In this document: positions 48,104-52,781 of the stretch, in pieces
Layout: each line of letters starts with the position of its first letter
Position numbering within the stretch: the stretch's first letter is position 1
Source: Kutzneria chonburiensis
Lineage (GTDB): Bacteria > Actinomycetota > Actinomycetes > Mycobacteriales > Pseudonocardiaceae
DNA: 64,000 nucleotides
Direction of reading: 5' to 3'
Assembly: GCF_028622115.1 (NCBI RefSeq)
Contig: NZ_CP097263.1
Span: 7,998,001 to 8,062,000, forward strand
Notes under the pieces: generated by a model
Seen by the model: the letters and a program-made list of their open reading frames with translations, nothing else
The model's database searches: none
Told to the model about the DNA's origin: nothing
Position numbers and translations under genes: made by a program

Positions 48104-48142
48104 CCCTGGTTTCGCCGCCGGAGACCGTTAGCATTGCGAACC

Positions 48143-49453
48143 ATGAACGTGGCGATCACAGGCGGATACGTGGTGCCGGTCGACGGCGAACCCATCGACG
48201 GCGGAACAGTCCTGATCATCGACGGGCGGATCGCCGCCGTCGGCCCCGATGCCGACGTCGACGTGCCCGACGAGGTCGAGGTGGTCGACGCGGCCGGCGC
48301 CTGGGTGCTGCCCGGCTTCGTCGAGGCGCACGGCCACCTCGGCGTGTCCGAGGAGGCCGAGGGCTGGGCCGGCGAGGACACCAACGAGATGACCGACCCG
48401 GTCGGCGCCCGGTTCCGCGCGCTGGACGGCATCAACCCGGGCGACCTGGCCTTCGCCGACGCGCTGTCCGGCGGCGTCACCACCGCGGTGATCAAGCCCG
48501 GCTCCGGCAACCCGATCGGCGGCCAGACCGTGGCCGTGAAGTGCTGGGGCCGCACCGTGGACGAGATGGTGCTGCGCGAGCCGGTCAGCGTGAAGAGCGC
48601 GCTGGGCGAGAACCCCAAGCGGGTGTACGGCGACAAGAAGGTCACCCCGAGCACCCGGCTCGGCGTGGCCGCGGTGATCCGCCAGGCGCTGACCAAGGCC
48701 CAGGACTACAAGGCCAAGCGGGACGCGGCGGCGGCCGACGGCAAGCCGTTCGAGCGGGACGCCGACAACGAGATCCTGGTCAAGGTGCTGGACCGCGAGC
48801 TGCCGTGGTGCCAGCACACGCACCGGGCCGACGACGTGGCCACGGCGATCCGGCTGGCCGAGGAGTTCGGCTACCGGCTGGTCATCAACCACGGCACCGA
48901 GGCCCACCTGATCGCCGACCTGGTGGCCGAGAAGAACATCCCGGTGATCATCGGCCCGCTGTTCACCAGCCGCTCCAAGGTCGAGCTGCGCAACCGCTCG
49001 CTGCGCAACCCCGGCATCCTGGCCAGGGCCGGCGTGGAACTGGCGATCATGACCGACCACCCGGTGGTGCCCATCCACTTCCTGGTGCACCAGGCGACGT
49101 TGGCCGTGAAGGAGGGCCTGGACAGCGACACCGCGCTGCGCGCGATCACCGCCAACCCGGCCCGAATCCTCGGCCTTGACGACCGTGTCGGCTCTTTGAA
49201 GCCCGGCCTGGACGGCGATGTCGTCATCTGGTCCGGTGACCCGTTGGTGATAGATTCACAACATGCAAGAACGACAGCCTGGACCCCTAAACCGACAGCT
49301 CAGGGCCATCGTAGGTGCCCGAGTCAGCGTGCTGCGTGGCGACGAGAAGGTTTCGCACATCGCTCAGCACGAGACGGGTACCCGCAAGGCCGAGGAGATG
49401 GGGGCACGGATCGTCGGCACGTTCGAGGACTTGGACGTCTCGGCAACCGTTAG
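48143..49453 (+). CDS. Amidohydrolase (imidazolonepropionase-like), 3' end replaced by prophage
   Basis: Native sequence runs from ATG 48143 to about 49250 (about 369 residues): VLPGFVEAHGHLG metal motif, WCQHTHRADD, LVINHGTEAHL, IMTDHPVVP metal Asp and the C-terminal LGLDDRVGSLKPGLDGDVVIWSGDPL. After GDPLVID family similarity ends, and the frame reads on through the integrase gene to 49453 as unrelated Arg-rich residues. The missing tail is normally short (30 or so residues), so the fused product might still fold. The junction identifies the gene as the likely phage attachment site. Confidence 0.88.
   Translation: MNVAITGGYVVPVDGEPIDGGTVLIIDGRIAAVGPDADVDVPDEVEVVDAAGAWVLPGFVEAHGHLGVSEEAEGWAGEDTNEMTDPVGARFRALDGINPGDLAFADALSGGVTTAVIKPGSGNPIGGQTVAVKCWGRTVDEMVLREPVSVKSALGENPKRVYGDKKVTPSTRLGVAAVIRQALTKAQDYKAKRDAAAADGKPFERDADNEILVKVLDRELPWCQHTHRADDVATAIRLAEEFGYRLVINHGTEAHLIADLVAEKNIPVIIGPLFTSRSKVELRNRSLRNPGILARAGVELAIMTDHPVVPIHFLVHQATLAVKEGLDSDTALRAITANPARILGLDDRVGSLKPGLDGDVVIWSGDPLVIDSQHARTTAWTPKPTAQGHRRCPSQRAAWRREGFAHRSARDGYPQGRGDGGTDRRHVRGLGRLGNR
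49225..49262. other. Probable left attachment site (attL) of the prophage
   Basis: Placed where amidohydrolase similarity stops and 1-38 bases before the integrase start. Large serine integrases usually sit beside their site and use protein-coding targets with a short common core. The exact core needs the right end of the element, outside this window. Confidence 0.6.
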
Positions 49454-50879: not shown

Positions 50880-50956
50880 TAGGTAAGTTTGTATGCTACT
50901 ATCGCCGCAACAAAGAAATGCACTTCCCGTGTGAGTTGTGGTCACTGTCATGTTCG

Positions 50957-52606
50957 ATGAAAAACAAGCGAGAGGCTGTGGCAATGCAGGCGGTTGAACA
51001 GCCCGAAGGGCGTCCCTATCCAGAAAAGGAGGTGTTCCACGGGATCGTCGGCAAGATCGTGAAGCACGTCGCGCCGACCACTGAAGCCGACATCATGGGA
51101 ATGGTCGGAAGCCTGCTCACGGGGTTCAGTGCGGTCGTGGGCTCCGGGCCGCACTTGATGATCGGTCGGGAGCGACACCGGGTCAACGTCTGGACGCTGC
51201 TCATGGGCGGTACAGGCAACGGAAAGAAGGGCACGGCGACCACCGCCGTGAGCGACTTCCTCAAGGCCCTAGATGAGGGGTTCTGGCAGGACCGCAGGGT
51301 GACCAGCCTGTCTACGGGCGAAGGTCTGATCTACGCTGTGCGTGATGCCAGCGGGTTTGAGGCGGACTTTCAACTTGACGACGGTATGCAGATCATCATG
51401 GGCAAGGAGCCCGACCCGGGCGTGGTTGACAAGAGGCTTCTTGTCATCTCCTCCGAATTCGGCTCCATCATGGCCAAGGGCGGAACTCTGGGGAACGTGC
51501 TCCGGGACGCTTGGGACGGCTCGGACCTCGCACTGATCACCAAGGAGAAGGCAAAGCGGGCGACCGCTCCGCACATCTCGGTTCTTGGCCACATCACGCC
51601 GGAGGAGTTCGGCGACCGGCTCAAGAACAGGGACATGGCCGGCGGTACCTACAACCGGTTTCTTCCTCTTTTCGTGCATCGCTCGCAAGAGGTGCCGTGG
51701 CCGGAGTACTCGGCAGCGTGGGAGGTGGAGGCCCAGAACCTCGCCGCCGAGCTGGCCGACGCCGCGCGGGCCGCCCGTAAGGTCGAGCGCATCGAACTCG
51801 GCGACGCCGCGAAGCGGACGTGGGGCGGCGGCATGTACCAAGAGATGTCCGCCGTGGATGAGAACGATCCGGAGATGCTACAACAGTTCACCAGTCGGCG
51901 GGCCGCTCATACGCTGCGGGTCGCCGCCGCGTACGCCTTGATGAACAAGCGGAAGTCCATCACTAAGGCCGATCTCCTCGCCGCCCGGGCAGTCGTGATG
52001 TACGCCTTCGACTCTGCTCGGTACATTACGAAGAAGCTCGCTCCGGCCAAGGACCGCAGTTGGGAGAGCGCCAAGGAGACCCTGACCGCACATCTGCGCT
52101 CCGTCGCGCCGAACGGGATGAACAGGACCACCTGTATGCGGGTGCTCAAGAACAACTTCTCAACCGATGCGGTGTCCGACCTTATCGCCCAGATCGGCGC
52201 GGTGGAGAAGCGGGAACTGTCCGACGTGACCAAGCGTGTGACGACCATGGTCTACCTTGACGAAGCGCCGGAGAACGAAGAGAAGGGGCCTGACATGGCT
52301 GACTACGGCTACACCCGCAGAACACCGAACCAAGTGGACAAGTTGGAGGCTGCTGGGTGTGTGAAGGTGTTCGCGGACTACGCCGCGACATCGCCGGACA
52401 TGAGGCTGAACCTCATGTCCTGCCTCGTGGAAATGGAGGCGGGTGACCGTCTGGTTATCTGCGAATTCACCGAGGTCAGTCGCCATGTTGGCACGGCGCG
52501 GGAAGTGCTGGAATGGCTGGACGTCCACGGGCAAGAGTTCGGTGTTTTGGACGAGCCGAAGTGGACGCTCGCCGAGGTGTTGGCATGGGTCCGGAGCTTC
52601 CCGTGA
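50957..52606 (+). CDS. DUF3987-like ATPase fused to a resolvase-like domain
   Basis: 549 residues from ATG 50957 (ATG 50984 also possible). The ATPase has Walker A GGTGNGKKG near residue 84, a Walker-B-like LLVISSEFGSIM and later ITPEEFGDRLKNRDMAGGTYNRFL, as in helicase-like DUF3987 proteins used for plasmid or phage replication. From about residue 447 the protein resembles a serine-resolvase core: YGYTRRTPNQ, LEAAGCVKVFADYAA, AGDRLVICEFTEVSRHV, HGQEFGVLDE. The catalytic Ser position holds Thr or is lost. No stop separates the two parts. A dyad GTAGTA ... CTACTA (50876-50901) with TATGCT lies upstream. Confidence 0.75.
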   Translation: MKNKREAVAMQAVEQPEGRPYPEKEVFHGIVGKIVKHVAPTTEADIMGMVGSLLTGFSAVVGSGPHLMIGRERHRVNVWTLLMGGTGNGKKGTATTAVSDFLKALDEGFWQDRRVTSLSTGEGLIYAVRDASGFEADFQLDDGMQIIMGKEPDPGVVDKRLLVISSEFGSIMAKGGTLGNVLRDAWDGSDLALITKEKAKRATAPHISVLGHITPEEFGDRLKNRDMAGGTYNRFLPLFVHRSQEVPWPEYSAAWEVEAQNLAAELADAARAARKVERIELGDAAKRTWGGGMYQEMSAVDENDPEMLQQFTSRRAAHTLRVAAAYALMNKRKSITKADLLAARAVVMYAFDSARYITKKLAPAKDRSWESAKETLTAHLRSVAPNGMNRTTCMRVLKNNFSTDAVSDLIAQIGAVEKRELSDVTKRVTTMVYLDEAPENEEKGPDMADYGYTRRTPNQVDKLEAAGCVKVFADYAATSPDMRLNLMSCLVEMEAGDRLVICEFTEVSRHVGTAREVLEWLDVHGQEFGVLDEPKWTLAEVLAWVRSFP

Positions 52607-52781
52607 CCGAATGACTCTTGACGAAGATGCGGAACTCTGCGATAAATGAGTTCCGCACGGCGAAGCCGGCGACCACAACCGAATAAAGCCGCTACGGGGT
52701 AGCGGAGCAGACCAATATGAAGGCTGCGACGGGTCATGGTGACCGGTCGTGGCCTTTCGTGTTTTTCAGGGAGGAACAGAA

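Follow-up and report, generated by a model that had tools for sequence, protein, structure and literature searches.

A serine-less resolvase core joined to a DUF3987-type ATPase beside the serine integrase of a Kutzneria chonburiensis prophage

Introduction

What is a recombinase domain without its catalytic serine doing at the end of an ATPase of a replication type? This question is raised by an open reading frame (ORF) in a stretch of 64,000 nucleotides of Kutzneria chonburiensis (NZ_CP097263.1, positions 7,998,001 to 8,062,000; hereafter, the window), whose product combines a DUF3987-type ATPase with a C-terminal resolvase-like core and whose neighbour is the large serine integrase gene of a prophage (Table 1). 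The preliminary description of this DNA proposed that the fused protein binds the integrase, or DNA at att or origin sites, and links replication to excision. The best reading of our results is that the core represents a gene of the integrase operon which has merged with the ATPase gene.

The C-terminal part is a resolvase core without the catalytic serine

Residues 460-562 searched alone matched PF00239 (Resolvase N-terminal domain) with an E-value of 1.8e-5 and 25.3 bits (cut-off, 23.3), while the whole 562-residue protein stayed under the cut-off (E-value, 3.8e-4; 21.0 bits). Structure prediction gave the fold of the resolvase catalytic domain, and the core shares this fold, the strand order, and the AAGC, GDxLV, and SR elements with PF00239 proteins such as gamma-delta resolvase (2rsl), Gin, and Sin. 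The recombinase fold first assigned from the order of short motifs thus stands. Unlike these proteins, the window core lacks the catalytic serine, and its serine loop is shortened. YARVS reads YTRRT, and the nucleophilic serine of the Y-x-R-x-S loop is gone, as had been described; the change is, however, larger than the replacement then reported. The spacing from GY to AAG is 12 residues in the window core and 18 in 15 of the 16 comparison sequences (11 serine-bearing and 5 of another serine-less kind; one gave no value), so the loop has been shortened by 6 residues. A simple replacement of the serine was ruled out since all three cores of this kind have a shortened loop, namely the window core and the stand-alone cores of genome G816 and viral contig L204 described below.

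The equivalents of Y6, R8, R45, and R71 are kept, while those of D67 and R68 are T and E, respectively (gamma-delta resolvase numbering). The ORF ends 16 residues past the end of the Pfam match with no C-terminal DNA-binding domain, and a short tail stands in place of most of helix E. Judged by its sequence, the core is incapable of recombination, having lost the serine, part of the loop, D67 and R68, and any DNA-binding domain. The proposed role in binding DNA at att or origin sites is not supported by a domain of this composition. The core matched an invertase family (phrog_125) rather than that of the integrases (phrog_95), which ruled out its derivation from the neighbouring integrase.

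Similar cores stand alone next to other serine integrases

In the G816 prophage, a serine-less, loop-shortened core of 119 residues is encoded by its own gene, which lies 28 nt downstream of a serine integrase gene and is preceded by a Shine-Dalgarno-like stretch. In L204, a core of the same kind (87 residues) is encoded directly downstream of a serine integrase gene. These stand-alone cores were 42% and 28% identical to the window core, respectively. The window and G816 cores were sisters (0.993; 70 sequences), and both have E at the R68 column. Among 390 genomes of the host's family, the core was present only in the genome of the window and in G816, whose prophage is also present in IMG/VR (L062).

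Since integrase-adjacent stand-alone cores exist, a partner function, if any, would be independent of the ATPase, and the occurrence of three integrase-adjacent dead cores without a DNA-binding part suggests a protein-protein role with the integrase. From these sequences, we infer that the core may function as a non-catalytic partner of the integrase. Our tentative preference, held with less than even confidence, is that the window ORF combines two modules from a temperate actinophage of the Bxb1/Astro kind, i.e. a DUF3987-type ATPase and a dead, core-only resolvase of the integrase gene cluster, which would be a protein partner of the integrase. The dead core, a copy of the catalytic fold that could neither cut nor bind DNA, would touch integrase subunits and tune when the integrase synapses or is active. 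It would have started out with a gene of its own behind the integrase, like those of G816 and L204; its frame would then have merged with the ATPase gene, and it might still be produced alone from M460. Co-transcription with the integrase, contact with it, its regulation, and separate translation of the core are all presumed here.

Several observations weigh against a partner function. The L204 core fell outside the grouping of the window and G816 cores in the 70-sequence comparison, and the three cases may be independent losses. Of the 61 viral loci that carry relatives of the integrase, 2 encoded the core (the G816 prophage and L204), and the core model detected no such gene at the other 59; serine integrases, thus, do not need it. 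Within the 390 genomes of the family, G816 had the closest relative, and a genome scan with a two-row core alignment, which is pattern-based and insensitive, returned nothing. Only three cases are at hand, and these results do not speak for conservation of the core by selection. Viral scans with the G816 core and with a three-row core alignment returned only the G816 prophage. Scanning for integrases with the L204/G816 pair brought up seven loci, none of which had a new core.

The main rival explanation is decay, in which a small resolvase gene without its serine loop and DNA-binding domain is drifting, attached by chance to the ATPase, and has no function. The shortened catalytic loop, the loss of D67/R68 and of most of helix E, the low identities of the stand-alone cores, and the lack of close relatives among the sequences found are all in line with decay. 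On the other hand, the frame is open and its GC content at third codon positions (GC3) is 0.74-0.92 across three stretches covering the core, by which it looks coding. The fold is still predicted, the same loop is shortened in three integrase-adjacent cases, and the G816 core has a gene and a Shine-Dalgarno-like stretch of its own. We consider decay rather unlikely.

In phage records, matches of the cores showed identities of 28-36% (best 40 of 49, 60 of 124, and 40 of 84 records), and among the best listed, most were named invertases, resolvases, or recombinases, or were unannotated. A census with a simple serine motif over 85 loci, some of which were fetched twice and which left out the window, G816, and L094-L101, gave 76 loci with the motif and 9 without. 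Among the latter, L042, L082, L093, L137, and L139 visibly keep the serine, the frames of L075 and L083 begin without that stretch, and the part of L049/L148 covered did not include the domain. A second kind of serine-less core (GYATA..., ca. 125-135 residues) with a normal loop length was observed in genus g4 of this order, in five genomes. In L094, L095, and L098, it is flanked by a nitroreductase gene on one side and an HhH-GPD gene on the other (Pfam was run for L094 only), a setting that suggests a conserved protein of the chromosome.

The fused reading frame

At the junction of the ATPase and the core, the window has TGACATGG, the same letters as those joining the integrase stop and the core start in L204, and M460 aligns with the start methionine of the stand-alone cores of the relatives. 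The simplest history is, therefore, that of a stand-alone gene read through from the ATPase frame, either in evolution or in assembly. Start-site energies ranked M460 eighth of the 64 ATG/GTG codons of the ORF and third of its 28 ATG codons, which is suggestive only. If the joining arose in assembly through an indel error, or by a very recent mutation, the two genes would be separate in the living phage. This agrees with the TGA of the L204-type junction, which is present out of frame in the window, with the position of M460, and with the observation that no other ATPase relative seen continues into such a core. However, the integrase, the gp47-like protein, and the polymerase of the prophage align with their families in an unbroken frame. 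Indel errors are, thus, not widespread, and a frame artefact appears unlikely. The stable hairpin behind the stop codon of the fused gene had a z-score of -3.6 against shuffles (81-nt stretch); a terminator scan found no terminator-like site on the plus strand at this stem.

The ATPase part matched phrog_14296 (DNA primase; 2.9e-8) and gave no Pfam match of its own at E ≤ 1. PF13148 (DUF3987) was matched at E ≤ 0.01 by 18 of the 21 members of the ATPase alignment, the window protein not being among them; the earlier naming of a DUF3987-type ATPase is supported through these aligned relatives. The window protein has a P-loop-like GxTxxGxKG and the motifs SEFG, GHITP, and NRF; the P-loop lysine, the acidic strand, and the HITP and NRF motifs conserved in this branch (alignment without one weak relative, L010) are all present in it. 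The ATPase module, thus, appears to be intact. DUF3987 ATPases, which occur in phages and integrating elements, have reportedly been proposed as helicases for the replication of mobile elements.

Among the loci searched, the fusion was seen only in the window prophage, and a conserved fusion is not supported. At the thresholds used, no resolvase core was fused or nearby at 24 genomic ATPase loci with 1.5-kb flanks or in 25 wider regions (mostly of the same 24 loci), nor was there one at 30 viral ATPase loci (some duplicates, e.g. L176, L178, and L184). The C-terminal resolvase core, thus, distinguishes the window member from the other DUF3987 ATPases seen. The whole protein matched in 10 of 394 genomes of a class sample and 18 of 397 genomes of an order sample, its own genome included, and some of these matches were ordinary resolvases. 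With the whole fused protein, a pattern-based and insensitive scan of the genome collection gave nothing, as did viral scans with the fused protein and with the integrase alone. A literature search at the level of abstracts, with few subscription papers, found, among the entries listed, no inactive serine recombinase, helicase fusion, or resolvase-like protein near a serine integrase; to this extent, the case is undescribed, as had been supposed. SCCmec differs from the window fusion in having separate proteins, active recombinases, and other helicase families. What it shares is one element that carries genes of both sorts, for replication helicases and for serine recombinases, with the replication module beside large serine recombinases (PMC7581432).

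The prophage and its directionality factor

The amidohydrolase gene (PF01979) breaks off in its SGDPL codons at 49232, and its C-terminal part resumes at genome position 8096770. Although the 8-bp identity of the shared core TCCGGTGA is near chance by itself, the gene is uninterrupted across the exact att point in 4 of 6 genomes of the same genus (the other two gave no motif match), which indicates a prophage of ca. 49.5 kb at this site. The integrase has Resolvase and Recombinase Pfam domains above cut-off, matches phrog_95 (1.7e-71), and is 45% identical to gp30 of Mycobacterium phage Astro. Tail genes come first in the prophage, the fusion and the integrase lie beside att, and a primase, the gp47-like protein, a gene-53-like gene, and polymerase A follow from the other end. 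This order resembles those of Bxb1 and Astro ('cluster A'). Bxb1 likewise has the order of primase, gp47, gene 53, and polymerase beside a serine integrase, a gp47 that is 56% identical to the gp47-like protein, and a short common att core; it differs in that its gp35 integrase is only 25% identical to that of the window and has only an opposite-strand gene behind it in the record. Behind the Astro integrase lies gp29, a 76-residue protein; it is unrelated to the window core, and their equivalence was ruled out. The gp47 protein is said, in the title of a cited paper, to be needed for phage DNA replication as well.

Could the dead core itself be the recombination directionality factor of the integrase? 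Its position next to integrases in three elements would suit such a role, and passages of PMC4111918 describe the directionality factors gp3 and gp47 as working via protein contacts with integrase. However, a relative of Bxb1 gp47, which is a proven directionality factor (PMC3642061 and PMC5737554), is encoded elsewhere in this prophage. The core has a resolvase fold and is not a metallophosphoesterase of the gp47 type, the gp47 relative being another gene. On this comparison, the directionality task more likely belongs to the gp47-like protein, and its assignment to the core is disfavoured and very improbable. The Bxb1 record (NC_002656.1) names gp46 (46 residues) the directionality factor, while the papers assign gp47.

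The presence of the gp47-like protein also bears on the coupling of replication to excision, in which the dead core would recruit the ATPase to the integrase or att DNA. The ATPase motifs are intact, the integrase is adjacent, and a tyrosine integrase lies less than 2 kb from ATPase relatives in 7 of the 25 regions (L058, L109, L110, L112, L113, L115, and L116) and is in frame in 2 more, possibly as assembly joins. Against this stand the single instance, the missing DNA-binding part, and the gp47 relative; no evidence of such a link emerged, and we regard it as improbable. The neighbourhood of ATPase and tyrosine integrase is like that of integrating conjugative elements.

In a broader form of the partner proposal, some actinophages would carry, within the serine integrase operon, a gene for a dead, core-only resolvase which mimics the catalytic domain to regulate the integrase and which is here fused to a replication ATPase, physically linking the replication machinery and the integrase; this would be a long shot. 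The physical joining was observed at this one locus and may have come about simply by the merging of two adjacent genes. What is new is that stand-alone, integrase-adjacent dead cores exist, which hints at an unstudied integrase partner. Serine integrases find wide use in genome engineering, and they have few known natural protein regulators. A non-catalytic recombinase core from the integrase cluster would, if real, be a new kind of regulator, and its fused form would physically tie a replication ATPase to a partner of the integrase; we know of no other such link. With decay or a frame artefact, the locus would be a minor curiosity.

Table 1 Features of the locus and of related loci (window positions unless stated otherwise)
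Feature	Position	Strand	Remark
Fused reading frame, 562 residues from first ATG	50918..52606	+	alternative start 50957
DUF3987-type P-loop ATPase part plus C-terminal region	50957..52294	+	
Junction	52278..52297	+	Shine-Dalgarno-like stretch, then TGACATG; TGA out of frame, ATG is M460
Resolvase core, serine-less and loop-shortened	52295..52606	+	103 residues from M460; most of helix E and DNA-binding domain missing
Hairpin, 10-bp stem	52628..52657	+	directly 3' of the stop codon of the fused gene
attL, left end of prophage, shared core TCCGGTGA	49232..49239	.	inside 3' part of amidohydrolase gene 48134-49231
Right copy of TCCGGTGA	genome 8096770-8096777		outside the window; ca. 49.5 kb from attL
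Large serine integrase, 538 residues	49263..50879	+	23 bp from attL core
gp47-like protein	genome 8081773-8082534		56% identical to Bxb1 gp47 over 250 residues
Serine-less cores of the second kind	L094:4285-4668, L095:4032-4427, L096, L097, L098:3732-4109		
ATPase relatives with NPFAALL/NPIAALL-like tail	L172-L174, L176, L178, L180-L182, L184, L185		some duplicates

Relatives of the ATPase

The nearest viral ATPases (L157 and L159) are 42-43% identical to that of the window and end near the equivalent of residue 456. ORF39 of Thermobifida phage P318, also a DUF3987 ATPase, is 32-33% identical; the genes of P318, L157, and L159 adjoin tail or lysis genes (for L157 and L159, from reading the ORFs). 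Passages of PMC6893835 report ORF39 (L102:6992-8470) as detected by mass spectrometry with purified virions, and an ATPase of this type may be packaged in virions or stick to them. In L120 (7370-9472) and L121 (6304-9756), which come from the same genome, an ATPase relative shares one reading frame with a tyrosine integrase; these may be assembly joins, a run of N preceding the ATPase part in L121, and were not used as a precedent. The C-termini of ATPase relatives vary, with other, longer tails in L008, L009, and many viral members. Approximately 10 of the 30 viral relatives end in an NPFAALL/NPIAALL-like tail after a low-complexity linker, which resembles a binding peptide.
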